Shown here: piece by piece, positions 2,351-27,046 of the stretch | Numbering within the stretch: the stretch's first letter is position 1 | Layout: each line of letters begins with the position of its first letter | NCBI RefSeq assembly: GCF_023150235.1 | Contig: NZ_JAKLLH010000023.1 | Coordinates: 1-48,877 of the forward strand | Origin: Azonexus sp. | GTDB taxonomy: Bacteria > Pseudomonadota > Gammaproteobacteria > Burkholderiales > Rhodocyclaceae | Direction: 5' to 3' | DNA length: 48,877 nt | The notes under the pieces: generated by a model | What the model was told of the DNA's origin: nothing | The model's input: the letters and a program-made list of their open reading frames with translations, nothing else | Databases searched by the model: none | Position numbers and translations under genes: made by a program

Positions 2351-5028
2351 CAGGCTTCTCCTTCTTCGCTGCTTTCCGCCGCGGCATCGGGAGCCAAGCC
2401 AGCGGCCGGATTTTGCGTATTTTCACCGTCGACCGTGGCAAGTGCATCGGTCTCGGCACCGGCTTCGCTCGCGATTTCGGCGACGGATTCGACCACCTTT
2501 TCCAGCCCGGCCAGCTTCTCGCCGTCGTCGAGCGCGATCAGGGTCACGCCCTGCGCCGCGCGGCCCATGCCACGGATTTCGGCAACACGGGTACGGATCA
2601 ACACGCCGCCGGTGGTGATCAGCATGATTTCGTCTTCGTCGCTGACCAGCTTGGCGCCAACCACGGTCCCGTTGCGTTCGCTTTCGGCAATCGCCTTGAC
2701 ACCCTGGGTGCCACGCCCGGAATGGCGGAAATCGGCGAGCACAGTGCGCTTGCCGAAACCATTTTCGGTCGCCACCAGCACCGACTGCTGATCGCTCTCG
2801 GCGACCAGCAGCGAAATCACGCTCTGGCCGTCCTGCAGCTTCATGCCGCGTACGCCGCGGGCGCCACGGCCCATCGGCCGGACATCGCCTTCGTCAAACC
2901 AGACCGCCTTGCCGGCATTCGATACCAACACGATATCGCTCTGGCCGGTGGTCAGCTCGACGCCGACCAGGTAATCGCCTTCATCCAGCGCGACGGCGAT
3001 GATGCCGGCCTTGCGCGGATTGGAGAAGTCGGACAGCGGCGTTTTCTTGACCGTACCCTGAATGGTGGCCATGAACACGTACTTGTCGTCGGCGAATTCC
3101 TTGACCGGCAGCACGGCATTGATCTTTTCGCCCTCTTCCAGCGGGAAGAGGTTGACGATCGGCTTGCCACGGCTGTTGCGACTGCCTTGCGGTGCTTCGT
3201 AGACCTTGAGCCAGTAGCAACGGCCGCGGTTCGAGAAGCACAGGATATAGTCGTGGGTATTGGCGACGAAGAGATGATCGACGAAATCCTCATCCTTGAT
3301 CGCCGCCGCCTGCTTGCCGCGGCCACCGCGGCGCTGGGCGCGGTAATCGGCGAGCGGCTGGGCCTTGACGTAACCGCCGTGCGACAAGGTCACGACCATG
3401 TCCTGCGGCGTGATGAAGTCCTCGATCCCGAGTTCCTGCGTATGCAGCACGATCTCGGACTTGCGCTCGTCGCCGTACTGCTCGCTGACCTGCTTGAGTT
3501 CCTCGACGATGATCGCGGTGATCCGTTCCGGCTTGGCCAGGATGTCGAGCAGGTCGACGATCTTGTCCATGATTTCCTTGTATTCGCCGACGATCTTGTC
3601 CTGCTCCAGGCCAGTCAGGCGCTGCAGGCGCAATTCCAGGATCGCCTGCGCCTGGGCGTCGGACAAGCGGTAGCCTTGTTCCGAGAGACCGAACTCGGGC
3701 AGCAAGCCTTCCGGCCGCGAGGCATCGGAAGAAGCCCGCACCAGCATTTCTTCGACCACCGGGCTGCGCCAGTCGCGCGCCATCAGGCTGCGCTTGGCAT
3801 CCGGCGGCGTCGGCGCGGCCTTGATCAGTGCGATGATTTCATCGACGTTGGACAGCGCGACAGCCAGACCTTCAAGGATATGGCCGCGCTCGCGCGCCTT
3901 GCGCAGCTCGAACACGGTGCGGCGGGTCACCACTTCGCGACGATGCGACAGGAAGCATTCGAGCGCCTGTTTCAGGTTCAGCAAACGCGGCTGGCCGTCG
4001 ACCAGTGCCACCATGTTCATGCCGAAGGTGTCCTGCAACTGCGTCTGCTTGTACAGATTGTTGAGGATCACCTCGCCGACTTCGCCGCGCTTCAGTTCGA
4101 TGACGATGCGCATACCCGACTTGTCGGACTCGTCGCGGATGTCAGAAATGCCTTCGATTTTCTTTTCGTTAACCAGCTCGGCAATCTTCTCGATCAGCGA
4201 CTTCTTGTTTACCTGATACGGGATTTCATCGACGATCAGCGCCTGGCGATCACCCTTACCGATGTCCTCGAAGTGAGTGCGGGCGCGCATGATGACGCGG
4301 CCACGACCGGTCTTGTAACCTTCGCGCACGCCCATCACGCCATAGATCAAGCCGGCGGTCGGGAAATCAGGCGCCGGAATCAGGTCAATCAGGTCATCAA
4401 TCGAAATTGCCGGGTTTTCGAGCAGGGCCAGACAGCCACGCACGACTTCGCGCAGGTTGTGCGGCGGGATGTTGGTCGCCATACCGACCGCGATCCCGGC
4501 CGAGCCGTTGATCAGCAGATTGGGAATCCGCGTCGGCAATACCGAAGGCTCCAGTTCCTTGCCGTCGTAGTTGGGCTCGAAATCGACCGTTTCCTTGTCG
4601 ATATCGGCCGTCAGGTCGGAGGCGATGCGGTCCAGGCGGCACTCGGTGTAACGCATCGCTGCCGCGTTGTCGCCGTCGATCGAGCCGAAGTTGCCCTGGC
4701 CATCAACCAGCGTGTAACGCAGCGAAAAATCCTGAGCCATGCGCACCAGAGTGTCGTAAATGGCAGAGTCGCCGTGCGGGTGGTACTTACCCATGACTTC
4801 GCCGACCACGCGGGCGCATTTGACGAAGGGGCGGTTCCAGACGTTATTGGTTTCGTGCATCGCGTACAGCACGCGCCGGTGCACCGGCTTCAGGCCGTCG
4901 CGCGCATCGGGCAGCGCACGGCCGACGATCACGCTCATCGCGTAATCGAGATAGGAACGCCGCATCTCGTCTTCAAGACTGATCGGCAGGGTTTCTTTGG
5001 CGAATTGATTGCTTACGGAATCCGTCAT
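2350..5028 (-). CDS. gyrA: DNA gyrase subunit A
   Basis: The 892-residue breakage-reunion subunit of gyrase works with GyrB (not in the window) to introduce negative supercoils. The N-terminal domain carries the quinolone region [12 protein letters not shown] with the sensitive-type Ser and Asp, and the catalytic tyrosine in AMRYTECRL. The GyrA box QRRGGRGK, which distinguishes GyrA from ParC, lies at the start of the C-terminal beta-pinwheel. The last 45 or so residues are an acidic Ala/Glu-rich tail. The ATG at 5028 is chosen over a start 19 codons upstream because the family begins about here. The tail region carries a copy of the dispersed GTCGACCGTG motif (2424-2438). Confidence 0.97.
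2424..2438. repeat. GTCGACCGTG motif copy inside the gyrA tail
   Basis: The 14-base palindrome reads CACCGTCGACCGTG here, one base off the perfect form seen at 10161 and 13133. It falls in the codons for the poorly conserved acidic C-terminal tail of GyrA (ATVDGEN on the minus strand), where an insertion would be tolerated. It is listed as one member of a dispersed family; the family assignment is inference. Confidence 0.55.
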
Positions 5029-5154
5029 GGGTCCTAGTTCCAGATATCCGCCGCAGCCGGGCAACGGCAGCCTTGGTGACTGCAAGCGTAATTTGCTATT
5101 TTATCATGCACCAGACACCGCACACGGCCCCGGCACCATTTTTAAGGGAGCACC
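5029..5154. promoter_or_regulatory. Divergent promoter region between gyrA and mtaD
   Basis: The 126-base gap between the two divergent starts must hold both promoters. On the plus strand TTGGTG (5073-5078) and TATTTT (5097-5102) are separated by 18 bases and could serve as a sigma-70 promoter for the deaminase. On the minus strand TAAAAT near 5104-5099 is a possible gyrA -10. The deaminase has a clear AAGGGAG ribosome site. The promoter calls are by eye and tentative. Confidence 0.35.
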
Positions 5155-6480
5155 ATGACTCAAACCCAGAAGATCGACCTCTTGATCGAAGCCCGCTGGA
5201 TCGCTCCGGTAGATAGCGACGCACTACTCGAACACCACGCCGTTGCCATCGACAACGGGCGCATCCTCGCCCTGCTTCCCAGTAACCAAGCACGCCGCCG
5301 CTTCCAACCGGCGAGGCAGCGAATACTGGACAAGCACCTGCTGATTCCCGGACTGGTCAACACTCACACCCACGCGGCCATGACCCTGCTGCGTGGCATT
5401 GCCGACGACCTGCCGTTGATGGAATGGCTGCAAAAACACATCTGGCCCGCCGAGGCGGCACACATGTCGCCGCAATTTGTCCTCGACGGCACCCGCCTGG
5501 CCTGTGTCGAAATGCTGCGCGGCGGCATCACCTGTTTCAATGACATGTATTTCTTTCCTGATGCCAGCGCACAGGCCGCCAGCGAGCTTGGCATGCGTGC
5601 CACCATCGGCATCACCACCCTGGAGTTCCCGACACCTTATGCCAGCGACGCCGACGACTATCTGGACAAGGGGCTGGCAGTGCGCGAGCGCTGGCTGGAA
5701 CACCCGCTCATCAACTTCAGCCTGGCACCGCACGCCCCATACACGGTCAACGACGCCAGCTTCGAACGCATCGCCACACTGGCCGGCCAACTGGCCCTGC
5801 CCATACACTGCCACATTCACGAAACGCAGCAGGAAATAGTCGACAGCCTGAAATTACACGGCAAGCGCCCGCTTGCACGCCTGCACGACCTCGGGCTAAC
5901 CGGACCGGGCCTGATTGCCGTACATGCCGTGCATCTCGACGATGGCGACATCCGCTTACTAGCCGAGAGCGGCAGCCATGTTGCCCACTGCCCAACCTCC
6001 AACCTCAAGCTGGCCAGCGGCATCGCGCCGCTCAAACGCCTGCTCGATGCCGGTATCAATATCGGACTGGGGACCGACGGCGCCGCCAGCAACAACCGGC
6101 TCGACCTACCCGGAGAAATGCGGCTGGCGTCGCTGCTGGCCAAGGGCAGCACGGGCGATGCCGCCGCCGTATCCGCACGCCATGCGCTGCGCATGGCAAC
6201 GCTCGGTGGCGCCCAAGCCCTCGGCCTTGCGACAAGGATCGGCTCGATCACGCCGGGAAAACAGGCCGATCTGTGCGCCATCGACCTATCGTCGAGCGAT
6301 TGCCGCCCCTGCTTCGACCCCGTTGCTCATCTGGTGCACGTGGCGGGACGAGAAGCGGTAAGCGATGTCTGGGTAGACGGAAAGTGTTGCATCGAGGCCA
6401 AAACACTGCTTGCAAATAGCCCAAACAACTTGGAAGCGGCACTTACCCTGTGGCAAAATAGACTGGAAGTCTGTCGGTAG
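5155..6480 (+). CDS. mtaD: MTA/SAH deaminase-type amidohydrolase (TRZ/ATZ family)
   Basis: The 441-residue amidohydrolase belongs to the TRZ/ATZ family, whose characterised members deaminate 5'-methylthioadenosine and S-adenosylhomocysteine. Metal-binding features are visible: the HTH of NTHTHAAMTLLRG (about residue 66), HCHIHET (about 220), the histidine in AVHAVHLDDGD, and the aspartate in GTDGAASNNRLDL. In many Betaproteobacteria a gene of this kind lies next to gyrA and upstream of ubiG/ompA, consistent with recycling of methylation products. Here ompA follows directly but ubiG does not. Start: ATG 5155 with AAGGGAG 6 bases upstream. The substrate is assigned by family and context, not proven. 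Confidence 0.85.
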   Translation: MTQTQKIDLLIEARWIAPVDSDALLEHHAVAIDNGRILALLPSNQARRRFQPARQRILDKHLLIPGLVNTHTHAAMTLLRGIADDLPLMEWLQKHIWPAEAAHMSPQFVLDGTRLACVEMLRGGITCFNDMYFFPDASAQAASELGMRATIGITTLEFPTPYASDADDYLDKGLAVRERWLEHPLINFSLAPHAPYTVNDASFERIATLAGQLALPIHCHIHETQQEIVDSLKLHGKRPLARLHDLGLTGPGLIAVHAVHLDDGDIRLLAESGSHVAHCPTSNLKLASGIAPLKRLLDAGINIGLGTDGAASNNRLDLPGEMRLASLLAKGSTGDAAAVSARHALRMATLGGAQALGLATRIGSITPGKQADLCAIDLSSSDCRPCFDPVAHLVHVAGREAVSDVWVDGKCCIEAKTLLANSPNNLEAALTLWQNRLEVCR

Positions 6481-6554
6481 CATCCGCAACTTGCATCCAG
6501 CATCGCAGACTGACAGGCCAAGAAATTCCAAACTTTCTTCAACGAGGGAAAACA

Positions 6555-7229
6555 ATGATCAACAACATCGCCAAGAAGTCTCTGGTTGTCGCCTTGCTGG
6601 CCGGCATCGGTTTTGGCGCCGCCGTCGCCCAGGCTCAGGAACGTGTCTACGTCATCGATCAGCGTGGCGTTGTCGCCAAGTCCGGTTTCGGCCTGTGCTG
6701 GCGTACTGGCTACTGGACCCCGGCTGCTGCCGCCAAGGACCCCGCAGGCTGCGAGTGCGACAAGGATCTGCTGCCGAAAGAAACCTGCGCGCCGCAGCAG
6801 GCGATGAAGCCGGCCGTTGCATCCGCTCCGGCTGCCGCCAAGCCGAGCAACGAGAAGATCACCGTTGCCGCCGATGCGCTGTTCGACTTCAACAAGGCCG
6901 TCCTGCGCCCTGAAGGCAAGGCCAAGCTCGACGAGCTGGTTTCCAAGGCCAAGGCCATCAAGCTGGAAGTCATTCTGGCCGTGGGCCACACCGACCGCAT
7001 CGGTGGCGATGCCTACAACCAGAAGCTGTCCGAGAAGCGCGCCGCCGCCGTCAAGGAATACCTGGTTTCCAAGGGTGTCGAAGCCAACCGCGTTTATACC
7101 GAAGGCAAGGGCAAGAAGCAGCCCGTGACCGGCGACAAGTGCGGCAAGAGCACCAAGAAGACCAAGACCCTGATCGACTGCCTGCAGCCGGATCGCCGCG
7201 TCGATATCGAAGTCATCGGCACCAAGTAA
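6555..7229 (+). CDS. OmpA-family peptidoglycan-binding outer membrane protein
   Basis: The 224-residue protein has a signal peptide (about 1-28, KKSLVVALLAGIGFGAAVAQAQ), a short Cys-containing middle (residues about 50-80, with C-W-R-T-G-Y-W-T-P and a C-E-C-D pair), an Ala/Pro linker, and a C-terminal OmpA domain (about 100-220) with the peptidoglycan-contact pattern GHTDRIGGDAYNQKLSEKRA. It lacks an 8-strand barrel, so it is probably a periplasmic or outer-membrane-associated anchor. A second Cys pair (DKCGKSTKKTKTLIDC) is inserted near the end of the domain, as in other betaproteobacterial homologues. It has its own strong terminator at 7251-7277 and a GAGGGAAAACA ribosome site. Confidence 0.88.
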   Translation: MINNIAKKSLVVALLAGIGFGAAVAQAQERVYVIDQRGVVAKSGFGLCWRTGYWTPAAAAKDPAGCECDKDLLPKETCAPQQAMKPAVASAPAAAKPSNEKITVAADALFDFNKAVLRPEGKAKLDELVSKAKAIKLEVILAVGHTDRIGGDAYNQKLSEKRAAAVKEYLVSKGVEANRVYTEGKGKKQPVTGDKCGKSTKKTKTLIDCLQPDRRVDIEVIGTK

Positions 7230-7250
7230 TCCGGCACCGCTTCGATCCTG

Positions 7251-7277
7251 AAAAAGCCCCGCTTGCCGGGGCTTTTT
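7251..7277 (+). terminator. Intrinsic terminator after the OmpA-like gene
   Basis: AAAAAGCCCC (7251-7260) pairs perfectly with GGGGCTTTTT (7268-7277) around a 7-base loop, giving a hairpin that ends in a T run. It begins 21 bases after the stop codon and could act in both directions because of its A and T tracts. Confidence 0.9.
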
Positions 7278-7380
7278 CATTGCCAGCTGGCAAGGCGGTT
7301 TTCAGGTAAGGAAATTGGCGGGACCAATCTGTTGCAAATTCACAACAGAGCAGGAAGATCGAAAACAGAGCGAATCGGGA

Positions 7381-7396
7381 TGTGACCCGGATCACA
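7381..7396. promoter_or_regulatory. CRP-type binding site
   Basis: TGTGACCCGGATCACA is a perfect TGTGA-N6-TCACA palindrome, the consensus of the CRP/Vfr branch of the CRP-FNR family. It lies 35 bases upstream of the small membrane-protein ORF at 7432 and about 255 bases upstream of the RTX-like gene. The match is seen directly; which protein binds it is not known. Confidence 0.6.
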
Positions 7397-7431
7397 GCCG
7401 TCTTTCTTCCGGCAGGAGAGAATTCACTGCC

Positions 7432-7542
7432 ATGAAAAATTTCCGTACCGCCACCCTTCTCGTCACCGCGCTGGTCGTCCCCGGCGGGCTTTTGCTCCTT
7501 TTCCCCATGGTGATGAAGGCCTATCGTCGCTGGCGGGGTTAA
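7432..7542 (+). CDS. Small single-span membrane protein (36 aa)
   Basis: The ORF starts at an ATG 14 bases after a GGAGAG purine tract and encodes 36 residues: a short basic N terminus, a hydrophobic stretch (about 7-27, TATLLVTALVVPGGLLLLFP) and a basic end (KAYRRWRG). This is the layout of a single-span inner membrane microprotein. It is transcribed behind the CRP-type site at 7381. No family was recognised. The wide ribosome-site spacing leaves doubt, so it could be non-coding leader sequence. Confidence 0.45.
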   Translation: MKNFRTATLLVTALVVPGGLLLLFPMVMKAYRRWRG

Positions 7543-7652
7543 AATAGCCACCGCCCGACCTGAGCGGCTACCCGACCCGGCCAGACCTCGCCGCATGACC
7601 CGGCCCGCTCCTTGCCACAGCCCGACGCATCAATCGCCGAGGATCAGACCAC

Positions 7653-9377
7653 ATGGATAGCAAACTCGCCGTACAGCGGCTCTTTCGCGGCATTTTGCTG
7701 CGTTCGGCAAGCAGTTCCGAAGAAAAACTCTTTGCACAGCTCTTCGACAACCGCTCCCTGAGCGAGGAGCAACTGGTGGTACTCGGCTGGCAATCAGAGG
7801 AGTTTCTCACCAAGGTGGCTCCGATAGCCCTGCTCGACTATGCCATTTCCGGCATTACCAATGGCGCGAGGGTGATTGGCTGGTACAACAGCCCCAGTGG
7901 AACGCCGCTTGCTCCCACCGGAAGCGACCGTACCCAGAACGCGATGCAGGTCATCCTTTCAGGTTACGGCCTGCTGCAACCGGGCAGTCAGTCCGAGTTG
8001 TCCCGGGCAATCCTCGATATTGGCATCCGCCTTGGCTTCTCGCTTTCTTCGGCCACTGCCGACAGCCTGGCCAGTCAGATTACGGCTGGCTCGATGAGCA
8101 TGCTCTCGCTGATGAACGATGCCGTCACGCTAGCCATCAGCCAGCGCCCGCAGTTGCTGACGCAAATAGGCAGCAGTCTGCTCGAATCCGTGCTTTCGGA
8201 AAACACGACGCTCCCCGGCGCCGCTGGCATGGCGCCGGTGGATCAGGCAGATGCGATTACCGAAAGCTATCTCGCTCCCAGCTTGATCGTACCGGTTGAC
8301 GGCCTGATCTACGAATCCACGGCCAACGATGGCAGCATTACAGCGACTGAGTTGCAGCTGATCGGAACCGCCTGGCGTGGCAAGGTAGGCGACACCATCC
8401 TGACGCTGACCGGTTTGCCGCTCGGCCTGAGTGGCAAGATTGTGGTCACCGGCTCGCAGACAGCCGAGATCCGCTTTACCGGCAAGGCCCGCAGCCACGA
8501 TGAGGCGGCCTCCAAGTCGATTACCCTGACCTTCACCGACGCGCACTTCCTCGGCTCCAAGGCAGCCGACGTTGCGCCACTGGTCAAGGGCGCCACCACC
8601 CTGGGGCTGCAATTTTTCAACAACGATCCCTGGTCGCTGGGCGGGTCGAGCATGAGTCTGTTCGGTTCCGCGGCAATCTCCATTGACCTTCTCGCCGCCA
8701 GCGGCACCATAGGTAGCACGGAAGTCAGTGCTGCCGATCTGACCGGCATCGCCAGTCTCGACGCACGCGCCGTCACGGCAGCCGTCACTCTGAGCGGCAA
8801 CACGGCAGCCAACACGCTCTATGCCGGCAGCGGCGGCAGCACGCTGCGGGGGCGGGACGGCAACGACACCCTGTACGCCGGCAAGGGCATCGACACCTTC
8901 GTTTTCGAGGCAACAGCGGACGTGGGAGCGAGCGGAATTGCCGGTAACGGGCTGGACAAGATTCATGGCTTCAAGATCGGCGAAGGCGGCGACAAGCTCG
9001 ATTTCCGTGAATTCCTCGGCACGCCGGCCATCGGCGCCACCATTTCCGGTGCCGGTGCGCTCAGCGCATGGAGTAACGGCGAAATCATCGTCGTTTATGA
9101 AAACGGCTCGCCGCTGACCACGGCAAGCCAAATTGCCGCTCTTTTCGGAACGGCCCTGGCCGCCCCCACCGCTCCCGCCCGCGTCGTCATCTTCACTGCC
9201 GGCGTCCCCGGACCGACCGATCCCGGAACGGCCTCGGCCTGGTTTGTCAGCAACCGCTCATCCAGCGGCAGCGTAAGCGCCATCGAGGCAGCCGACGAAG
9301 TGGTCAAGGTTGCGGAACTGGTCGGGATCAACAACCTCGGCCTGACTTCGCTGCATGCCGACAATCTGCTGATCTGA
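7653..9377 (+). CDS. Large secreted protein with hemolysin-type calcium-binding repeat
   Basis: The 574-residue protein has no Sec signal peptide. Residues about 1-60 resemble the short helical repeats often found at the start of bacterial DUF4214-type surface proteins (weak). The middle is Ser/Ala/Thr/Gly-rich and contains beta-rich segments. Near residues 385-415 there is a compact RTX block (GSGGSTLRGRDGNDTLYAGK, then GIDTFVFEAT) followed by KIHGFKIGEGGDKLDFREF, the pattern seen at the C-terminal secretion end of type I secreted proteins (serralysin/VCA0849 type). The C terminus ends in hydrophobic LLI, also typical of type I substrates. No ABC exporter is nearby. Surface or S-layer-like function is inference. 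Confidence 0.65.
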   Translation: MDSKLAVQRLFRGILLRSASSSEEKLFAQLFDNRSLSEEQLVVLGWQSEEFLTKVAPIALLDYAISGITNGARVIGWYNSPSGTPLAPTGSDRTQNAMQVILSGYGLLQPGSQSELSRAILDIGIRLGFSLSSATADSLASQITAGSMSMLSLMNDAVTLAISQRPQLLTQIGSSLLESVLSENTTLPGAAGMAPVDQADAITESYLAPSLIVPVDGLIYESTANDGSITATELQLIGTAWRGKVGDTILTLTGLPLGLSGKIVVTGSQTAEIRFTGKARSHDEAASKSITLTFTDAHFLGSKAADVAPLVKGATTLGLQFFNNDPWSLGGSSMSLFGSAAISIDLLAASGTIGSTEVSAADLTGIASLDARAVTAAVTLSGNTAANTLYAGSGGSTLRGRDGNDTLYAGKGIDTFVFEATADVGASGIAGNGLDKIHGFKIGEGGDKLDFREFLGTPAIGATISGAGALSAWSNGEIIVVYENGSPLTTASQIAALFGTALAAPTAPARVVIFTAGVPGPTDPGTASAWFVSNRSSSGSVSAIEAADEVVKVAELVGINNLGLTSLHADNLLI

Positions 9378-9485
9378 ACTCGACGCTTTCCGCTGGCGAA
9401 GTCGCCACCGTCATCGTCATGACCGGCAAACGTCATCCGGATGCGGGATAATGGCGCCCGCTTCCACTTCGCCCTAGACTCCGCC

Positions 9486-10139
9486 ATGCCCAGCCTGCCG
9501 CCGCTTGTCCGTACTGCCCTCGTTTCGACGCTGCTGATCGCCCTGCTCCCGTCGCTTTCCGGCTGCGCCACCGCCCTCGTCGCCACCGGCGGCGTCGGGG
9601 TGCTGGCGCTGCACGACCGGCGCAGTTTCGGCACCCAGACCGACGACGAAAGCACCGAATGGAAAGCCGCCGCGCGCTTGCCGGAAAAATATCGCGACAG
9701 CGCCCACCTCAACTTCACCTCGTATAACCGTAAGCTGCTGATCACCGGCGAAGTGCCGAGCGAGCAGGCGCGGCAGGAAATCCTCGCCATCGTCGGCCGG
9801 ATCGAGGGCCTCCGCCAGATCCACGACGAAAGCGCAACCATGCCGCCTGCGTCGCTGGCCTCGCGCAGCCGCGACTCGCTGACCGACGCCAAGGTCAAGA
9901 CGCGGCTGATCGAAGACAAACAGATTTCCGCCAACCACTTCAAGGTCGTCACCGAACGCGGCATCGTTTATCTGATGGGCATCGTCGGCGAGCGCGAAGG
10001 CAAGATCGCGATTGAAATCGCCCGTACCACCGACGGTGTCCGCCGCGTCGTCAGCCTGTTCGAAGTCCTTGGCGACGCCGAGCTGCGCCGCCTCAATCCC
10101 CCGGCGCCCAGCGCTCCGGCCCCGGTCGAGAACCGCTAA
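9486..10139 (+). CDS. BON-domain outer membrane lipoprotein (DolP/YraP-like)
   Basis: The 217-residue protein has a lipoprotein signal (LSGC at about residues 21-24) followed by two BON domains (about 55-120 and 130-195), the second containing the GIVYLMGIV core. The family includes E. coli DolP, which supports outer membrane integrity and binds anionic lipids at division sites. An upstream start 15 codons earlier is possible, but ATG 9486 sits directly before the hydrophobic signal and is preferred. It is monocistronic here, whereas in many proteobacteria dolP lies beside diaA/yraN, which are absent. It is convergent with the TRAP permease gene. Confidence 0.85.
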   Translation: MPSLPPLVRTALVSTLLIALLPSLSGCATALVATGGVGVLALHDRRSFGTQTDDESTEWKAAARLPEKYRDSAHLNFTSYNRKLLITGEVPSEQARQEILAIVGRIEGLRQIHDESATMPPASLASRSRDSLTDAKVKTRLIEDKQISANHFKVVTERGIVYLMGIVGEREGKIAIEIARTTDGVRRVVSLFEVLGDAELRRLNPPAPSAPAPVENR

Positions 10140-10150
10140 GCCGCGGTTTT

Positions 10151-10184
10151 CGGTCATGTTCACGGTCGACCGTGAATATGACCG
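10151..10184. repeat. 34-bp near-perfect palindrome with CACGGTCGACCGTG core
   Basis: The two 17-base arms, CGGTCATGTTCACGGTC and its partner, are complementary except at one position, so the whole 34 bases can form a hairpin or bind a dimer. The core TTCACGGTCGACCGTGAA (10159-10176) is identical to the copy at 13131. It sits in the 57-base gap between two convergent genes. There is no clean T run, so terminator function is possible but not obvious. Confidence 0.8.
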
Positions 10185-10196
10185 ATTTTGTCCCGC

Positions 10197-12098
10197 TTAC
10201 CCCGCCAGCAGCCCCGGCAGCCAGGTCGCGAGAAAGGGCAGCAGCGAAATCGCCAGCGCCCCGATGAAAATTGCGGCCAGCGCCGGCAGCACTGAAGCCG
10301 CCACCTCGCGCAGCGGCCGCCCGAACATCGCCGACGCAAAATAGAGATTCATCCCGGCCGGCGGACAGAGGAAGCCCATTTCGATATTGGCGAGGAAGAT
10401 GATCCCGAAATGCACCGGGTCGATGCCGTAGCTGGTGGCCACCGGCAGCAGCAGCGGCACCAGCACGACAATCGCCGCAAAAATTTCCATCAGCGCGCCG
10501 GCGAACAGCAGGAAGACGTTGAGCGCCAACAGGAAAGCCCACTTGTTGGGTAGCCAGGCCTGCGCGGTTTCAATCGCGGCATCGGGAATCCCGGCGTCGA
10601 CCAGGTAATTGGTCAGGCCCAGGGCCATGCCGAGGATCAGCATGATGCCGCCGATCACCTGCGCGCAGTCGGCCAGGCAGCGGCGCAGCAGCGCAGCATC
10701 GACTTCGCGCTGCGCCCAGGCCTGGGTCAGCAGCGCGTAGGCGGCGGTCAGCGCGGCGCTTTCGGTCGGCGTCGCCAGGCCGCCGGCAAGCGAGCCGATG
10801 GCGACCAGCGGCGCGGCGATTTCCCAGCGCGCGTGCCAGGCCGCGCTGCGTACCGCCGCCCAGTCGGTCGGGCAGGCAGCCACCGCCCTCGGCGCCAGGC
10901 CGTCGCGGCGCAAAAAGCCGCCGACCACGAGCAGGCAGACGACCATCAGCGCCGCCGGCAGCAGCCCGGCGAGGAACATGGTGTTGATCGGCACCCGGGC
11001 GATGATCGCGTACATGATCAGCGGTACCGACGGCGCCAGCAGCACGCCCAGGGCGCTGGCGCTGGTGACCAGGCCGATGCCGCGCCGCTGCGGCAGCCCG
11101 GCCTGGGTCAGCAAGGGCAGCAAGAGGCCGCCCAAGGCCAGGATGGTGACGCCGCTGCCGCCAGTGAAGGCAGTGAACACCGAACAGAGCACCGCCGCTG
11201 CAATCGCCGTGCCGCGCGCGCCGCCACCCGAGAGCGCGGTGAACAAGGCACCCAGCCGGGCGGCGGCGCCAGTGCGGGCAAAGATCAGCCCGGCCAGCGT
11301 GAATAGCGGCAGCGCCGGCAGCGACGGATTGACCGTGATCTGGTAATGACTGAGCGGAACCGCCGCCAGCGGCTGGCCCTCGGACCAGAACAGCGCCAGC
11401 GCCAGACCGCCGAGGACGGCGAAAATTGGCGCGCCGCAGAGCAATACCACGGTCAACAGCAATAACAGTGGCAAAAGCGGCAAGGTCTCGCCATCGAACT
11501 GTGCTGCCAGCCCCCAGCCGAGCACCGGCAGCAGCAGGCCGGCAATGCGTCGCACCAGGCTGCCGCTCGCACCTCCGCCGCCCTGGCCGCCGAGCTTGCT
11601 GCCATAGCGAACGCCGAGCACGGCGAAGCCGAGTGGCATCGCCAGCTGGATCAGCCAGCCGGGCAAGGCGTAGGCGAGCAGCCGGCCGCCGGTCATTTCG
11701 CTGGCGACGAAGGTCCAGCTGGCCTGCGCCAGCACGCCGCAGAGCAGCGCCGTGCCGCCCGCTCCGGCCCAGCCGGCAAAGGTTCTGAGCCAGGGCTGCG
11801 GCAAGGCGGCGAGGCCGGGACCGAGCGTGGTCAGGTGGCCGCCGCGCTCGGCGAGCACGGCGCCGGCCATTGCCAGGATCAGGCCAAGATGCTGCACCAG
11901 CAGCGGCTGGTTCTGGATGCCCTCGCCGAGTAGCGGCCGCACCACGATTTCGGCCAGCGGTAGCAGCAACATCAGGACCAGCGCACCGCTGGCCAAGCAT
12001 TCGGCGAGGCGCTCAGCGGCTCGGCCAAGCCGCCCGGCCAAACGCTCGCTGGGCAGCGGCGCGGGTGACGAAGCCCCCCCGGATTCGCGGGCCGCCAT
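10197..12098 (-). CDS. TRAP transporter permease, fused small and large subunits (DctQM)
   Basis: The 633-residue membrane protein joins a DctQ-like four-helix small subunit (about 25-170) to a DctM-like large subunit (about 190-633) of the tripartite ATP-independent periplasmic family, which uses ion gradients to import organic acids or other anions. The DctM part contains the TAFTGGSGVTILALGGLLLP signature region and the characteristic repeated hydrophobic hairpins. The start is 3 bases downstream of the dctP stop, so both are co-transcribed. Fusions of this type often accompany a TatT helper protein, found here further upstream in the operon. The substrate cannot be told from sequence. Confidence 0.9.
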   Translation of the reverse strand: MAARESGGASSPAPLPSERLAGRLGRAAERLAECLASGALVLMLLLPLAEIVVRPLLGEGIQNQPLLVQHLGLILAMAGAVLAERGGHLTTLGPGLAALPQPWLRTFAGWAGAGGTALLCGVLAQASWTFVASEMTGGRLLAYALPGWLIQLAMPLGFAVLGVRYGSKLGGQGGGGASGSLVRRIAGLLLPVLGWGLAAQFDGETLPLLPLLLLLTVVLLCGAPIFAVLGGLALALFWSEGQPLAAVPLSHYQITVNPSLPALPLFTLAGLIFARTGAAARLGALFTALSGGGARGTAIAAAVLCSVFTAFTGGSGVTILALGGLLLPLLTQAGLPQRRGIGLVTSASALGVLLAPSVPLIMYAIIARVPINTMFLAGLLPAALMVVCLLVVGGFLRRDGLAPRAVAACPTDWAAVRSAAWHARWEIAAPLVAIGSLAGGLATPTESAALTAAYALLTQAWAQREVDAALLRRCLADCAQVIGGIMLILGMALGLTNYLVDAGIPDAAIETAQAWLPNKWAFLLALNVFLLFAGALMEIFAAIVVLVPLLLPVATSYGIDPVHFGIIFLANIEMGFLCPPAGMNLYFASAMFGRPLREVAASVLPALAAIFIGALAISLLPFLATWLPGLLAG

Positions 12099-12101
12099 CG
12101 C

Positions 12102-13115
12102 TTACTTCGCCTTGCCGTTGCGGAAGTCCTTGAGATGGCCCATGACCTCGTCGAAGGTCTCGGCCGGCACCATCTTGCCCCGGATGCGCGGGTAAAGCTT
12201 CTCGGCCAGCGCCTGCCATTCCTGCATTTGTGCCGGATTCGGGGTGTTGACCGTGAGTCCGCGCTTTTTCATCGCCTCGACCGCCTCGTCGACTTCCTGC
12301 CGCGCCTTGGCCCGCATCTGCAGCCCGGCCTTGGCGCCGGCGCTGCGCAAGGCGGCCTGGGCCTCGGGGCTGCTCTCGTCCCAGGCTTTTTTGGTGATCA
12401 CCAAAGCCCCGACAATCGGCGCCCAATTGATGTCGAGCATGTGCGGCGCGCTGTTGTAGATCTGCGTCGCTAGCGCGAAATACGGCGTCGACGGCACGGC
12501 GTTAATCATCCCGGTCTGGATCGCCGGCAGGATGTCGCTGGTTTCCAGCGGTACCGGCGTGTAGCCCAGGCTCTTCATGATCTCCTGCTGCTCGTTTTCA
12601 CCGGCCCAGGCGAAGAACTTCATCCGCTTGTAGTCGTCCGGACGCAGCGCCGCTTCCTTCGAGAAGAAGCGGACCCAGCCGGCATCGCCCCAGGCGAGGA
12701 CGACGAAGCCCTTGTCGAGGAATTTCTTCTCCATCCCGCCGCGCATTTTCTCGCGCACGTAATCGACCTCTTCCCACGAGCGGAAGAGCAGCGGCAGCGC
12801 CTGCAAGGCGGCAATCGACGGCTCGATCTCGCGCAGCCCGACCACCGAGAGCAGCGCGCCCTGCAACTGGCCGATGCGCATCCGCCGCGCCATGTCGGTC
12901 TCGCCGCCCTGGCTGCCGTCGGGATAGACCAGGTACTTGCCGCTGCCACCCTGCGCCGCCCGCCAGGCCTCGCCGACTTCGAGCAATTGCCGGTGGTAGA
13001 GCGAACTCTTCGGCGCCAGCGTGCCGATCCGCAACTGCTTGTCGGCGGCGCCCGCCGTCCCATTGCCCAAAGCCAGACAAGCGCCGATCAGCAGCGGCCA
13101 AAGCTTCCTCAACAT
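12102..13115 (-). CDS. TRAP transporter substrate-binding protein (DctP family)
   Basis: The 337-residue periplasmic binding protein has a signal peptide (about 1-22, ending TAGAADK) and the DctP fold (LRIGTLAPKSSLYHRQL at the mature N terminus; ALPLLFRSWEEVDYVREKM around residue 115). It delivers substrate to the DctQM permease. It belongs to the branch found with TatT proteins (TRAP-TAtPT systems). The ATG at 13115 with GGGGGA 7 bases upstream is the start. The palindrome copy at 13131-13148 lies immediately upstream of this ribosome site, between tatT and dctP. Confidence 0.88.
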   Translation of the reverse strand: MLRKLWPLLIGACLALGNGTAGAADKQLRIGTLAPKSSLYHRQLLEVGEAWRAAQGGSGKYLVYPDGSQGGETDMARRMRIGQLQGALLSVVGLREIEPSIAALQALPLLFRSWEEVDYVREKMRGGMEKKFLDKGFVVLAWGDAGWVRFFSKEAALRPDDYKRMKFFAWAGENEQQEIMKSLGYTPVPLETSDILPAIQTGMINAVPSTPYFALATQIYNSAPHMLDINWAPIVGALVITKKAWDESSPEAQAALRSAGAKAGLQMRAKARQEVDEAVEAMKKRGLTVNTPNPAQMQEWQALAEKLYPRIRGKMVPAETFDEVMGHLKDFRNGKAK

Positions 13116-13130
13116 CGAAAATCCCCCAAA

Positions 13131-13148
13131 TTCACGGTCGACCGTGAA
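13131..13148. repeat. Perfect 18-bp palindrome TTCACGGTCGACCGTGAA
   Basis: The 18 bases are a perfect inverted repeat centred on GTCGAC, identical to the core of the element at 10151-10184. It lies between two genes of the same operon, 16 bases upstream of the dctP start. In mRNA it would form a stable hairpin just before the ribosome site, so it could influence dctP expression or mRNA stability. That role is inference. Confidence 0.8.
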
Positions 13149-13187
13149 AAAGACCAAAAAACGCCGCCCGGCGACTGCCGGTACGGC

Positions 13188-14459: not shown

Positions 14460-14478
14460 CAGTTCGCCGGAGCAGGAC

Positions 14479-15045: not shown

Positions 15046-15066
15046 GATTCATCCTTTCAAAAAAAC

Positions 15067-15081: not shown

Positions 15082-15158
15082 CACAGTTTCAAGGCATAAA
15101 ATGATGACCGGCGTATTACAACGGCGGAGAAGGCCCCCCGAACGCCCTCCGCCCCCTC

Positions 15159-16283: not shown

Positions 16284-16594
16284 TTTTTCGCCTACTTTTC
16301 CATTCTCCATCATTGCCCGCCCTCTCCCGTTCTAGTTCCGATTCCGGTTTTTGCCTTGCCTTGGCGATGCGGAAAGACTAGGCGCCGAGTGTTACCGGGC
16401 AAATACATGCTTCAATGGCGGCGCAATTTTTCCTCTGGCGCCGGTTGACCGTGACAGCGCCCTTTCCGGCCCGGACCACGGCGGAACCTTTGCCATTTGG
16501 CGGAATCCAAGGCCGTGTGTCTGCCAATTCGGCGGCCGCTTGCCGTTTCCCCGCCGCTGAAGCGGGCGACGCGGCCATCAGGGAGGGCTTGATC
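16284..16594. other. Non-coding gap between divergent genes
   Basis: This 311-base stretch separates the glycosyltransferase and the unknown gene at 16595. It holds a degenerate copy of the dispersed motif (GGTTGACCGTGACA, 16442-16455) and presumably both promoters. No RNA structure or convincing ORF was seen; the in-frame extension of the 16595 gene upstream to 16415 lacks a ribosome site and has unlikely composition. Confidence 0.4.
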
Positions 16595-17083: not shown

Positions 17084-17140
17084 AGGCGGGCAAGCCGGAC
17101 TGCTCGCCGGCTCCGGGCCGACATTCGGGCCGCGCGCAGC

Positions 17141-17287: not shown

Positions 17288-17339
17288 CCGCGTCAGAATG
17301 GCGTTTTGACACCGATGCGCCGTTTGACGCCGATACGCC

Positions 17340-17768
17340 ATGACCGAATCGAAACGCCCCTCGCCGGATAGCCAGGCCACCCCGCGGCAGGCATCGCCGC
17401 AAAGCGGCTCGCTTTTTTCCCCGCACTTCGCGCCGCTTTTTGCCAAATTACCGGCGTTGACCGTGGCAAGCGAGGAATTCAGCCCATTGTTCGCCTGCGC
17501 CGGGATGCGGATCGAGCGCATTGTCTCGAGCGGGCAATGCAGTCCGCCCGGTTTTTGGTACGACCAGGCCGAAGGGGAATGGGTGATCGTGCTGGCGGGA
17601 GCAGCCGACCTGCGCTTTGCCGACGAAACAGCGCCTCGCCGCCTGTGCGCCGGCGATTATGTGTACATCGCACCGCACCGCCGTCACCGCGTGGACTGGA
17701 CCGCCACGGGAGAATCGACGATCTGGCTGGCCGTATTCCACACCCCGCAGGCAGGGGACGATGACTGA
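17340..17768 (+). CDS. Cupin-domain protein
   Basis: The 142-residue protein has a disordered Pro/Ser-rich start (about 1-45) and a single small cupin barrel (about 50-135). The first metal-site motif is eroded and the second is partly kept (CAGDYVYIAPHRRHRV, with an EGEWVIVLAGAADLRF strand pair before). Similar stand-alone cupins are often annotated as cupin 2 proteins of unknown substrate. The gene follows the heptamer array by 52 bases; no strong ribosome site is visible, which leaves the precise start uncertain. An in-frame later start is possible. Confidence 0.7.
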   Translation: MTESKRPSPDSQATPRQASPQSGSLFSPHFAPLFAKLPALTVASEEFSPLFACAGMRIERIVSSGQCSPPGFWYDQAEGEWVIVLAGAADLRFADETAPRRLCAGDYVYIAPHRRHRVDWTATGESTIWLAVFHTPQAGDDD

Positions 17769-17997
17769 AAACTCCCGTTCCGCCAACGTCAACCAGAAGA
17801 CGTTTTTCACCACCCGCGATCCCGGTCGCCACGATGCGCCTGTCCTTGGCGGCATGCTTTCGCAGTAAAATCGCCCCTCCCCAACGCTGGAGAATCCAGT
17901 CGATGCCTGCTCCATCCGTCCAGACCTCGTGCCGCCCGGACGTTCTTCCGTCCCCCCGCCCCGGCCCTGTCCGAAAGCAGCGGACAGCATCCCTGGA

Positions 17998-19185: not shown

Positions 19186-19210
19186 AAGATGTCCTCCCGC
19201 CGCCGGCAAG

Positions 19211-19264
19211 ACCTGAAAAACCGGTGCGGAACCTGAAAAACCGGTTTTTCGACGGTCGACCGTG
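19211..19264. repeat. Duplicated ACCTGAAAAACCGGT, palindrome and GTCGACCGTG motif
   Basis: ACCTGAAAAACCGGT occurs twice, at 19211-19225 and 19231-19245. The second copy runs into a perfect 16-base palindrome GAAAAACCGGTTTTTC (19235-19250), directly followed by ACGGTCGACCGT (19252-19263). The region lies between convergent genes; the palindrome with T tract could terminate transcription from the cyclase gene. Confidence 0.7.
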
Positions 19265-19303
19265 ACAAGGCCACAGGTCCATCCTTCCAGGCGAGCGCTG
19301 CCC

Positions 19304-20662: not shown

Positions 20663-20926
20663 GAGTTGCCTCCTTGACTCCGGTGCCAGCCCGTTCCTGC
20701 CGGGTCGTAGGGTCACCGCGCGCGCAGCCGGAAAAACGGAGCGCGCAAAAAAGCGCTGGATTGTAGCCATGAGCGCACGCAGGTTCTACTCGGGAAAACA
20801 CCTATCTTGATCGCACACCGTCCGGATGCCCTCGCTGGCGGAAATACGGAAGCCGCCCAGCTTTCGGAACGGCTTTCGGGTAACATCGCCGCGCCTTGAA
20901 CCTGCGCCGTATCCCGGCCGTTGATC

Positions 20927-23242
20927 ATGACCGACCAGCTCAAACTTTTCGCCCCGATCCCGGCGGAACAATCCGCCGGGGAACCGCCGCTGCCGCCGGC
21001 CGCTCTCGGCCCGGCAACGGACATCCCGGCTCCCGCCGACTACGCCGCCCGCCGTTACCTCGAATACGCGATGAGCGTGGTCACCGGCCGCGCCCTGCCC
21101 TCGGTTGCCGACGGTCAGAAGCCGGTGCAGCGGCGCATCCTTTATGCGATGCACCGGATGGGGCTGTACAAGAGCCCCAAGCACGTCAAATCGGCGCGCG
21201 TCGTCGGCGACGTGATCGGTAAATATCACCCGCACGGCGATTCGTCGGTGTACGACGCCATGGTGCGGATGGCGCAGAACTGGAGCCTGCGCTACCCGGT
21301 GGTCGACGGCCAGGGCAACTTCGGCTCGCGCGATGGCGACAACGCCGCTGCGATGCGCTACACCGAAGCCCGGCTGACGCCGATTGCCGAATTGCTGCTG
21401 GCCGAACTCGATGAAGGTACGGTCGACTGGAAGCCCAACTACGACGGGGTCAACGACGAGCCGGTGCTGCTGCCGGCGCGCCTGCCCTTCTGCCTGTTGA
21501 ATGGCGCTTCCGGGATCGCGGTCGGGATGGCCACCGAAATCCCGGCGCATAACCTGCGCGAAGTCGCCGCTGCCGCCGTCGCCCTGATCCGCGACCCGCA
21601 ACTCGGCGAAGACGCTGTCCTGCGCCTGATCCCCGGCCCCGACTATCCGGGCGGCGCCCAGATCATCTCGGCGCCCGAGGAAATCGCTGCGATCTACAAG
21701 GGCGGACGCGGCAGCCTGCGCGTGCGCGCCAAGTGGAAGATCGAAAATCTGGCGCGCGGCCAGTGGCGGCTGGCGATCACGCAACTGCCGCCGGGCGTGT
21801 CGACGGCAACGGTGATGGCCGAGATCGAAGCCTGCTCCAACCCGGTGCCCAAGGAAAAGGCCGGCAAGAAGGTATTCACGCCGGAACAGCAAAACCTCAA
21901 GGCAGCCTTCCTCTCGGCGATTTCCGAAAACGGCGTGCGCGACGAATCGGGCAAGGAACATGCCGTCCGCCTGGTGATCGAGCCGGCCAGTTCGCGCCAG
22001 GACCAGGACGACCTGATCCGCCTGCTGCTCGCCCACACCAGTCTGGAAACCAACGCCTCGATCAACCTGACCGTCCTCGGAGCCACTGGCGCCCCGCGTC
22101 AGGCCTCGCTCTATTCGATCATCGAGGAATGGTGCCGTTTCCGGCTGTCGACCGTGGAAAGGCGCACCCGCCACCGCCTGACAGCCGCCGAAAAACGCAT
22201 CCACATCCTCGAAGGCCGGCAGGCGATCCTGCTCGACATCGACCGGGTGATCAAGGTCATCCGCGAATCCGACGACCCCAAGGCCGACCTGATCGCCGCC
22301 TTCAAGCTCTCCGAAATCCAGGCCGAAGACATCCTGGAAATCCGCCTGCGCCAGCTGGCCCGCCTCGAAGGGCTCAAGATCGGTGAGGAATTGGCCAAAC
22401 TGCGCGCCGAAGCTGCCGGCCTCAATCACCTGCTGTCTTCCGACGCCGCCCTGCGCGCCTGCGTTGCCGGGGAAATCGAAGCCGACGCTGCCAAATATGG
22501 CGACGAGCGCCGCACCACCATCGAGGTCGCCGAACGGGTGACAATGGCCGACGCAAAGAACGTCTCGGTGCCCGACGAGCCGACCACCCTGATCGTCTCC
22601 CGCCATGGCTGGCTACGCGCCCGCAGCGGCCATAACGTCGATCCGGCGACGCTGACTTTCCGCTCCGGCGACAGCCTGCTCGCCTGCCTGCCCTGCCGCA
22701 CGGTCGACCAACTGATCTTGCTCGATTCCAAGGGCCGCGCTTACTCGATCCCGGCCGCCGACCTGCCCGGCGGCAAGGGCGATGGCGTTCCGGCGACCTC
22801 GCTGGTCGATTTCCAAGACGGCGGCAAAACCGTACTGGCGCTGGCGATCAAGCCCGAGCAGCACTACCTGGTCGCTGCCGACGGCGGCTACGGTTTCCGC
22901 GTCAAGGGCGAAGACCTGCTCTCGCGCGGCAAGGCCGGCAAGGCCTTCCTGACCCTGGGCGACGGCGAAGCCCCGGCGATCTTCCAGCCGGCTCCGGCCG
23001 ACGGCGAAATCGCGGTATTCACCAAGGACGGCCGGGCGCTGGTCTTCGCCCTCGACGAGATCCGCCAGTTGCCGAAAGGCCGTGGCCTCAAGCTGATCGA
23101 TGCGGCGCCAGGCAAGACGGCGCTGGAGGCGATCGAAGCGGTGCTCGACGGCGTTGCCGGCAAGCTCAAGGGCGAAAAGCTGGACAACTGCCGCGGCGCG
23201 CGCGGTGGCAAGGGCAAGCCGGCAAGAAGCACCAGGAAGTAA
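20927..23242 (+). CDS. parC: DNA topoisomerase IV subunit A
   Basis: The 771-residue protein is the breakage-reunion subunit of topoisomerase IV, which decatenates daughter chromosomes. The quinolone region reads [13 protein letters not shown] and the catalytic tyrosine is in AMRYTEARL. There is no GyrA box in the C-terminal domain, which separates it from GyrA in the same window. The C terminus ends in a basic tail ([15 protein letters not shown]). parE, the usual partner, is not adjacent within the window. No clear ribosome site precedes ATG 20927. Motif copies lie inside the coding region at 22147 and 22699. Confidence 0.95.
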
Positions 23243-23370
23243 AAAACACGACAGGGCAGGAAGACACGACAGGAAAGCAACGCGACGCACCGGGTTGGGG
23301 GGATACCCGAGCGGACCGATTCCGGCCAGGTGCGAGGTAAAAATCTCCGTGCCAGGCCGGCACTTCTCCC

Positions 23371-25336
<1,966 letters not shown>

Positions 25337-25355
25337 TAGCTTCAGCATTCTGCAG

Positions 25356-25379
25356 GGCGGCTCAGCGAGCCGCCTTTTT
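25356..25379 (+). terminator. Intrinsic terminator or attenuator between guaB and guaA
   Basis: GGCGGCTC (25356-25363) and GAGCCGCC (25367-25374) form an 8-bp perfect stem with a 3-base loop, followed by five T. It lies 19 bases after guaB and 33 bases before guaA, so guaA must rely on read-through or its own promoter. Confidence 0.88.
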
Positions 25380-25411
25380 CATTCAAGGATTCACCTTTCC
25401 GGATTTTTTCA

Positions 25412-27046
25412 ATGAGCCACCAGAAAATCCTCATCCTCGATTTCGGTTCCCAGGTGACCCAGCTGATCGCCCGTCGCGTGCGCGAAGCCAAGGTCTTCTG
25501 CGAGATTCACCCCTACGACGTCTCTGACGACTTCATCCGCAATTACGGCGCCCAGGGCATCATCCTGTCCGGCGGCCCGAACTCGGTCACCGAAGGCGAC
25601 ACCCCGCGCGCACCGAATGTCGTGTTTGAACTGGGTGTTCCGGTGCTCGGGATTTGCTATGGCATGCAAACCATGGCCCAGCAGCTGGGCGGCCAGGTGA
25701 TGACCGCCGAAGCCGCTGGCAAGGCCCGCGAATTCGGCTATTCCGAAGTCCGCGCCCACGGCCATACCGCACTGCTCAAGGACATCGCCGATTTCACCAC
25801 GGCCGAAGGCCACGGCATGCTCAAGGTCTGGATGAGTCACGGCGACTCGGTCATGGAACTGCCGCCCGGTTTCATCAAGATGGCCTCGACGCCGTCCTGC
25901 CCGATTGCCGGCATGGCCGACGAGGCGCGCAAGTTTTACGCCGTCCAGTTCCACCCGGAAGTCACCCACACCAAGCAGGGCCGCGCGCTGCTCGAACGTT
26001 TCGTGCATGGCATCTGCGGCTGCGGCACCGACTGGGTGATGGGCGACTACATCGCCGAAGCCGTCGAGGCGATCCGCCAGCAGGTCGGTGACGAAGAGGT
26101 CATCCTTGGTCTCTCCGGCGGCGTCGATTCTTCCGTAGCGGCTGCGCTGATCCATCGCGCCATCGGCGACCAGCTGACCTGCGTTTTCGTCGATCACGGC
26201 CTGCTACGCCTGAACGAAGGCGATATGGTGATGGACATGTTCGCCCGCAACCTCGGGGTCAAGGTCATCCGCGTCGATGCCGTCGGCGACTTCATGGGCA
26301 AGCTGGCCGGCGTTTCCGATCCGGAACAGAAGCGCAAGATCATCGGCAAGGAGTTTGTCGAAGTCTTCCAGGCCGAGTCGAAGAAGCTGTCTGCCGCCAA
26401 GTGGCTGGCCCAAGGCACCATCTACCCGGACGTGATCGAATCGGCCGGCAAGGGCAAGAAGGGCGCCCACACCATCAAGAGCCACCACAATGTTGGCGGC
26501 CTGCCCGAAGACATGCATCTCAAGCTGCTCGAGCCGCTGCGCGAACTGTTCAAGGACGAAGTCCGCGAACTCGGCGTCGCCCTCGGCCTGCCGCGCGAGA
26601 TGGTCTATCGTCACCCCTTCCCTGGCCCCGGCCTGGGCGTGCGCATCCTCGGCGAAGTCACCCTGAAAGCCGCGCACCTGCTGCAGCGTGCCGACGCCAT
26701 TTTCATCGATGAACTACGGTCGACCGTGGCTACGGCACAAAATGCTGTCGCCGGCCTGTGCAGCGAGGAAGACGTCGGCAAGAGCTGGTACGACCTGACC
26801 AGCCAGGCCTTTGCCGTATTCCTGCCGGTCAAGAGCGTTGGCGTGATGGGCGATGGCCGCACCTACGAAAACGTCGTTGCCTTGCGTGCTGTGGTCACCA
26901 GCGACTTCATGACCGCGCACTGGGCGCATTTGCCCTACGAACTGCTCGGCCGCGTGTCGAACCGCATCATCAACGAAGTGCGCGGTTTGAACCGGGTGGT
27001 GTACGACGTTTCCGGCAAGCCGCCCGCGACCATCGAGTGGGAATGA
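25412..27046 (+). CDS. guaA: GMP synthase (glutamine-hydrolysing)
   Basis: The 544-residue enzyme aminates XMP to GMP. The class I glutaminase domain has the nucleophile in [10 protein letters not shown]. The ATP pyrophosphatase P-loop is [12 protein letters not shown]. The C-terminal dimer domain ends PPATIEWE, as in E. coli. It is about 20 residues longer than E. coli GuaA. Most of the excess lies between IDELR and YDLTSQAF (positions about 26714-26790), where E. coli has only four residues. The extra segment starts exactly at a copy of the GTCGACCGTG palindrome. The 3' end of this gene is the attachment site of the integrated element and remains intact after integration. Confidence 0.96.
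26716..26727. repeat. ACGGTCGACCGT palindrome inside guaA
   Basis: A perfect 12-base palindrome identical to the core of the intergenic copies. It marks the 5' edge of the extra segment in GuaA relative to E. coli. Membership of the dispersed family is inference from identity. Confidence 0.55.

Follow-up and report, generated by a model that had tools for sequence, protein, structure and literature searches.

The stretch of DNA analyzed here (the window) comprises 48,877 nucleotides of Azonexus sp. (assembly GCF_023150235.1, contig NZ_JAKLLH010000023.1), a genus placed in the Azonexaceae, Rhodocyclales, Betaproteobacteria in the NCBI taxonomy. By GyrA, the window falls beside Azonexus and Dechloromonas (93% to Azonexus sp. 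R2A61). Its left part is chromosomal DNA that includes gyrA and guaA. From 27.3 kb onward it is occupied by a conjugative element, which has a tyrosine integrase adjoining guaA and carries a Trb-type conjugation set, with genes for TrbI, CagX, TrbL, a CagE/TrbE/VirB-like protein, TrbC, a coupling protein, LysR, MFS, an O-methyltransferase, and AraC. We take this element to resemble integrative and conjugative elements (ICEs) of the Tn4371 family. Repeated over the chromosomal part is a short word, GTCGACCGTG, which had been noticed when the letters were read without database searches (the sequence-only reading). This word, the longer site to which it belongs, and the distribution of that site among Azonexus and Dechloromonas genomes are the subject of this analysis.

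The word was strongly over-represented. In the window, GTCGACCGTG had 10 matches at the eight loci already listed in the sequence-only reading (two loci are perfect palindromes and were counted on both strands), compared with 0.16 expected from dinucleotide shuffles; none of 100 shuffles reached 10. The 14-mer CACGGTCGACCGTG was exact at both places given for it (10161-10174 and 13133-13146) and had one mismatch at 2424, 19251, and 26715. When three mismatches were allowed, 14 matches were found in the window (4.41 expected), five of them in the element, which is near the chance rate. The supposed degenerate forms near 16442 and 17459 turned out to be GTTGACCGTG, a regular variant. A count over the whole genome, as that reading had proposed, gave 466 forward and 477 reverse copies of GTCGACCGTG (943 in total, 276 per Mb) in the 3,416,561 bases and 50 contigs of the window's own genome (G000; G, C, and L numbers are our handles for genomes, contigs, and loci), versus 7 forward and 13 reverse copies (20 in total) of the reversed string. 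In a 400 kb sample (20 stretches of G000 and window positions 1-27,000), the over-represented 10-mers were headed by GTCGACCGTG (105 copies, 2.7 expected) and GTTGACCGTG (45 copies, 0.85 expected).

Codon usage did not account for these numbers, the possibility against which the sequence-only reading had wanted its observation weighed. In 374 predicted genes, the decamer occurred 81 times. Sixty rounds of synonymous shuffling inside each gene gave 6.25 ± 2.58 copies (maximum 13), so that the observed excess is 13-fold. Since such shuffling leaves 6.25 of 81 copies, codon usage is not the cause of the decamer. The bipartite site described below was found 123 times in the same genes versus 7.90 ± 2.99 (maximum 14), a 16-fold excess. 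Two further words raised by k-mer counts were rejected, as each came from a single repetitive stretch. TGGACGGGTTGAATCTGCTGGAC, raised by Markov counts in the own-genome sample, belongs to an 18 bp tandem repeat array (L019 2207-2654, G000 contig C5) with 20 exact copies of its 16-mer at one place. For CTGACGACGG, raised in the closed genome G029, 61 of 64 copies were located in L140, where positions 2463-10280 encode a 2605 aa protein consisting largely of ALTTAQ repeats (86 stretches, PF20080).

When the copies were aligned, conservation was also apparent ahead of the core, where positions -19 to -16 are A or T. The site is AWWT-N15-GTYGACCG plus a variable 3′ end; its A/T tract is 4-5 bp long (consensus AWWT) and is centered ~21 bp, or two helical turns, from the core center. 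Weaker A/T stretches were detected at -9 to -5 and +10 to +14, about one turn to either side. Among 128 GTYGACCGTR copies without palindromic core, which were picked by the core alone, A or T was present at -18 and at -17 in 95% each and at both in 118 (background 35% per position). The corresponding values were 97% and 99% in 76 sites of the CA dialect (see below) and 96% and 86% in 140 sites of G029. Of 260 copies of the exact core from G000, 161 had three A/T at -18 to -16 (13.7 expected). At 65 loci of other named genomes, 10 of 98 copies did (7.8 expected), or 6 of 85 at the 64 loci left after L049 (Dechloromonas) was dropped. G000 as a whole contained 723 forward and 728 reverse bipartite sites (1451 in total), the reversed-pattern control 26 and 21 (47 in total). 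Palindromic cores made up 55 of 183 extended-core copies, and at 24 of 171 site loci two inverted sites overlap (inverted pairs), each with its tract. A free 56-column expectation-maximization search returned a clean motif in the own-genome sample, but among 12 further sets it drifted to codon periodicity or a gene repeat in seven and found nothing in one; it was replaced by exact cores with flank counts.

In the window, GTYGACCG had 22 matches, of which 16 (13 loci) were classified as having a tract, i.e. 3/3 A/T at -18 to -16, or 2/3 plus TG or TA after the core. Six matches without tract (5744, 16987, 18569, 19253, 21420, and 47203) were left out. The sequence-only reading had missed the cores at 1550, 11450, and 12246, each with a tract. 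All sites are listed in Table 1.

Table 1. Sites and other features in the window; "new" marks sites absent from the sequence-only reading, and A/T fractions refer to positions -18 to -16
Feature	Coordinates	Strand	Basis or remark
A/T tract + GTTGACCG + TGT; new	1531..1560	+	core at 1550, 3/3 A/T
A/T tract + GTCGACCG + TGG, inside gyrA and antisense to it	2409..2438	+	gyrA by Pfam
Overlapping inverted pair on CACGGTCGACCGTG, A/T tracts on both sides	10146..10189	.	pattern match
A/T tract + GTTGACCG + TGG; new	11447..11476	-	pattern match
2/3 A/T + GTTGACCG + TGA; new	12227..12256	+	pattern match
Overlapping inverted pair on CACGGTCGACCGTG, A/T tracts on both sides	13118..13161	.	pattern match
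A/T tract + GTTGACCG + TGA (earlier a "degenerate form")	16425..16454	+	pattern match
A/T tract + GTTGACCG + TGG (earlier a "degenerate form")	17437..17466	+	pattern match
A/T tract + GTCGACCG + TGA; near-palindromic core GACGGTCGACCGTG, opposite orientation without tract (1/3)	19236..19265	+	
2/3 A/T + GTCGACCG + TGG	22128..22157	+	pattern match
2/3 A/T + GTCGACCG + TGC	22698..22727	-	pattern match
A/T tract + GTCGACCG + TGT	23763..23792	-	pattern match
Overlapping inverted pair inside guaA (TACGGTCGACCGTG), A/T tracts on both sides	26700..26743	.	GMP synthase by Pfam
Conjugative element, no site	27343..48877	.	genes by profile matches; right end not found in window

The 171 site loci in a chromosomal sample of 434,269 bp from G000 correspond to one per ~2.5 kb. 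As the sequence-only reading had described for the window, copies were located both between and inside genes: by the calls of a simple in-house gene caller, 138 loci were in predicted genes and 33 (19%) were intergenic, compared with 12.3% of the DNA (p = 0.01). Inverted pairs were intergenic in 13 of 24 loci. Enrichment at gene ends had been put forward for testing; of the gap types, convergent ones were richest in sites, with 11 sites in 7353 bp of convergent, 17 in 25,326 bp of tandem, and 3 in 10,268 bp of divergent gaps. Unpaired sites in genes had their core on the coding strand in 60 cases and on the opposite strand in 67. Along the replichores, for which a test of strand bias had been suggested, no bias was found: in 21 stretches of G029, 63 sites ran along the GC skew and 81 against it (p = 0.16). 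Forward and reverse counts were also close in motif-rich genomes, wide gaps being, e.g. 562/629 in G073 and 650/713 in G008. Site spacing looked slightly even (coefficient of variation 0.81), but gaps were cut at the ends of the 20 kb stretches and nothing was concluded from it.

The 21.8 kb element contained no bipartite site, in line with the sequence-only reading; its sole core is the one without tract at 47203. At chromosomal density, 8.6 loci would be expected, and the probability of finding none is 1.8e-4. A second stretch without sites was L143 (G029 3060001-3080000), 20 kb with a GC content of 0.51 (0.57 for the genome sample) and genes for TniQ and an AAA_22 protein, which is probably a transposon or island. 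In four other contigs of G000 (369 kb), the longest site-free run was 12.4 kb.

Across 76 Azonexus/Dechloromonas genomes, the number of bipartite sites was bimodal. By tallies made by hand from the count table, 40 genomes (carriers) had 473-2047 sites, 26 had 20-88, and 10 had 93-196; the reversed-pattern control was at most 64 in all of them. Not all of the 26 low genomes are at zero, as some had 2-4 times their own control (G006, 81 vs 26; G072, 68 vs 18; G083, 85 vs 31). The ten intermediates (G062, G066, G068, G069, G084, G005, G007, G024, G095, and G097) were above control and far below carriers. They may be lineages with a decaying motif, although the listed sites of G062 were still well formed. 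In an order-wide sample of 200 genomes, drawn evenly from a larger group that may exceed Rhodocyclales, the 198 genomes besides G000 and G065 had at most 63 sites each. Four of these, from other genera of the same family, had 10-13 sites each, and in a few, counts were low yet several times the control for the same genome (G218, 37 vs 9; G140, 31 vs 6). Among the nine top-scoring 9-mers and 10-mers in 80-100 kb each of G015, G017, and G021, which have few sites, no word stood out to the degree that the motif does in carriers, so that an entirely different tag is not seen in them at this depth.

To place these differences, a GyrA tree was built with three outgroups and 32 genomes of the genus, namely G008, G023, and the 30 that matched the window best. 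The motif-rich genomes G023, G078, and G063 branched first within the genus (supports 98-100 / 95-99), and at least seven changes between rich and poor were counted, leaving out the intermediates G062 and G095. The carrier G087 and G021, which has few sites, are adjacent on the tree. The simplest reading of this tree, which represents one gene and 32 of 76 genomes and has several weak inner forks, suggests that the motif was present near the base of the genus and was then repeatedly lost.

The core GTYGACCG was common to carriers, and the 3′ end differed by genome, being TG, CA, mixed, or neither. TG was preferred in G000 (1132 of 1451 sites), G061 (1094 of 1500), and G002 (678 of 868), and CA in G008 (984 of 1363), G010 (926 of 1479), G019 (595 of 848), G087 (1290 of 2047), and G093 (915 of 1167). 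G063 and G064 preferred neither end (TG and CA together 189 of 1848 and 166 of 1749), and no clear 3′ end was seen in their sites inspected. Of 14 named loci of the genus, six have a site at the same offset (-168 to -163) upstream of gyrA, where the core is followed by TGG or CAG; one of these six has a single A/T at -18 to -16, and the CA-dialect genome G008 has TGG there.

Sequence, architecture, copy number, spread over both strands, dialects, gene context, absence from the element, and the distribution on a one-gene tree are direct observations. Of the three likenesses offered in the sequence-only reading, an uptake sequence fits best, given the copy number, the genome-wide spread, the lack of replichore strand bias, the 3′ dialects, the intergenic enrichment of inverted pairs, the Haemophilus-like tract, and the absence from the conjugative element; a HIP1-like (highly iterated palindrome) sequence and a strand-directed organization motif fit poorly. 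We consider it likely that naturally competent Azonexus use a DNA uptake sequence and that the repeated word forms its core, with uptake and receptor inferred. In such a system, (i) a surface type IV (minor) pilin or an associated receptor would bind core and A/T tract on free DNA; (ii) the pilus machine would draw the bound DNA in; (iii) ComEC would pass one strand inward; and (iv) homologous recombination would spread site-carrying alleles. Through such biased uptake, copies would accumulate in the shared chromosome and newly arrived mobile DNA would lack sites, a change of receptor would shift the dialect, and loss of the receptor would let sites decay.

Genes for such machinery were detected. 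The comEC open frame of G000 encodes 870 aa, and a comEC match was present in 71 of 76 genus genomes; the five without match (one carrier and four non-carriers) are all 70-89% complete. In the carrier G002 (contig C33 109525-144033) and the non-carrier G089 (contig C1 2218607-2251879), the match is split by ~33-34 kb at profile position ~26-29, as if this competence gene had been interrupted by a large element. In G018 (carrier) and G017 (non-carrier), the main match begins near the same profile position. A minor-pilin operon of G000 (contig C12; L241 6605-13411) encodes a pilin that matches ComP_DUS with 39.8 bits (cut-off 27.3), one that is GspH/FimT-like, proteins matching PilW and PilY1, a PilV-like protein below cut-off (40.2 vs 52.2), and PilX, which was named by position only. 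In a comparison with PDB sequences, the ComP_DUS-matching pilin matched 16 pilins with E ≤ 0.01, and ComP was not among their names. The best NCBIfam match of the FimT-like pilin was NF007800/PRK10506 (39 bits, cut-off 158), which we take to be the PpdA family and regard as a lead only. PpdA is proposed as receptor for the uptake signal sequence (USS) in PMC12616744; this and the articles below are cited by PubMed Central identifier. Among 19 genomes (G000 and 18 relatives; L241, L243-L260), the operon was of a compact pilE-fimT type or of types in which these pilins are kilobases apart. The occurrence of two unlike operon types in one genus suggests replacement of the whole set.

Several observations weigh against uptake as the explanation. 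Competence and biased uptake in the genus are themselves deduced from sequence. All 51 good genomes of the genus have comEC, whether they carry the motif or not, and short or split frames occurred in carriers (G002, G008, G018) and non-carriers (G017, G034, G089) alike. PF16732 (70 of 76 genomes) and PF12019 (71 of 76) were nearly as common in genomes without the motif, and the two operon types followed neither motif presence nor dialect. A search for the receptor by co-occurrence singled out no gene, as ComP_DUS, GspH/FimT, and comEC were all found with and without the motif. For mobile DNA, the lack of sites is documented in one element and in the TniQ-bearing 20 kb of G029, and site-free runs of 11-12 kb in G000 hold ordinary genes (a TonB receptor, a cytochrome oxidase subunit, a chemotaxis receptor), so that absence of sites alone is no mark of foreign DNA; a 13 kb run in G029 includes the gene for a long repeat protein. 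For known uptake sequences, PMC2346458 reports that orientation within genes is biased; no such bias was seen here overall. Many carriers are mixed rather than clean in dialect (185 TG and 438 CA of 1245 sites in G029; 197 and 408 of 790 in G003), and the fit to helical phasing was loose (best period 9.75 bp, R2 0.24-0.53). Finally, several of the patterns read as signs of uptake would also arise from a bent-DNA site of a nucleoid protein.

This last alternative, a site of a nucleoid-associated or chromosome-organizing protein that needs bent DNA, with the sites kept by selection on chromosome structure, is the main rival and, in our judgment, an unlikely one. The A/T stretches around the core and the tendency to inverted repeats would suit a wrapping or dimeric protein, and the sites are spread over the sample at about one per 2.5 kb; under selection in each cell, however, neither repeated loss in relatives nor a change of dialect at one end would be expected, nor that most sites lie in genes without strand preference and none in the conjugative element. 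More improbable still is a HIP1-like iterated sequence that a repair system and a DNA methyltransferase maintain. In its favor, HIP1 too is very abundant and is lost or altered in some relatives (PMC4390886), and the inner GTCGAC is palindromic in the commoner core form. HIP sites, however, are short palindromes occurring at 1000-2000 per Mb (PMC4390886), several times the density of the decamer, and the minority of palindromic cores and two-tract pairs as well as an A/T tract 15 bp away do not suit them. A strand-directed signal for replication or segregation, such as Chi or KOPS (FtsK orienting polar sequences), would also be an over-represented and mostly non-palindromic word, yet it is hardly credible in view of the balanced strand counts and the lack of GC-skew bias. 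A by-product of codon usage or a dispersed REP-like (repetitive extragenic palindromic) repeat can be dismissed with similar ease: GTC GAC CGT does encode an ordinary tripeptide (VDR) and most loci are in genes, but synonymous shuffling refutes the former, sites in genes use both strands and the three main frames, and core and tracts are common to the sites without any longer repeat.

An uptake sequence of this kind would have parallels in both known systems. USS tracts are spaced by helical turns. In Haemophilus influenzae (Pasteurellaceae), the USS core occurs 1465 times, with 2206 copies by motif search, and the A/T tracts of the USS influence uptake (PMC7811141). The Azonexus site resembles the USS in the short strict core with A/T tracts, the copy number, the variants between species (PMC3630211), and the inverted pairs, which for the USS lie in terminators (PMC1852404). 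It differs in its letters (GTYGACCG is unrelated to AAGTGCGGT, which was not over-represented here, with 6 copies in 434,269 bp and 3 of the reversed string), in the placement of its strongest tract, some two turns away from the core, and in its betaproteobacterial host. To our knowledge, the DNA uptake sequence (DUS) of Neisseriaceae has no A/T tract. For that family, PMC3630211 describes eight DUS dialects that follow clades, a conserved inner core, five genomes without obvious DUS, and overlapping dyad pairs in Simonsiella. In Neisseriaceae as in Pasteurellaceae, terminator hairpins are formed by uptake signals (PMC1852404), and an atypical distribution of the DUS has served to recognize ICEs (PMC7371117). 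Copy numbers in the hundreds to thousands, dialects, members without the motif, and overlapping inverted pairs are shared with the Azonexus site. The letters are not (the DUS is ATGCCGTCTGAA according to PMC5031613; GCCGTCTGAA, in DUS letters, occurred 0 times in 434,269 bp and its reversed string once), nor is the family (Neisseriales vs Rhodocyclales in the NCBI taxonomy). ComP-type specificity is a feature of the DUS, whereas here ComP_DUS matches are known by their sequences and occur with and without the motif. HIP1 of cyanobacteria is likewise highly iterated and low or replaced in some relatives (PMC4390886), but is a strict palindrome tied to methyltransferases, unlike the mostly asymmetric Azonexus site with its distant A/T tract. 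Among the matches listed in the open-licence PMC literature (bioRxiv not covered), none tied an uptake sequence or this motif to Azonexus or Dechloromonas; the main texts of PMC1852404, PMC1939737, and PMC3497702 do not mention Dechloromonas.

Sequence-specific DNA uptake has been described in two families (PMC5031613, PMC7811141), and the function that shaped it is called inconclusive in PMC1939737. We regard it as likely that the Azonexus site represents a third, independently evolved system, which would have been present at or near the base of Azonexus/Dechloromonas, combines a core with a distant A/T tract in the manner of Haemophilus but in a betaproteobacterium, and shows two or more 3′ dialects as well as repeated losses within one genus. 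If so, it would be a third case of sequence-specific uptake with letters unrelated to both known ones. Together with the 10 intermediates and the 26 genomes that have few sites or none, the 40 carriers would then form a natural series, within one genus, for the origin, dialect change, and decay of such a system. The receptor would be findable by genome comparison, and the site might also serve as a marker for foreign DNA and as a handle for transforming Azonexus bacteria.

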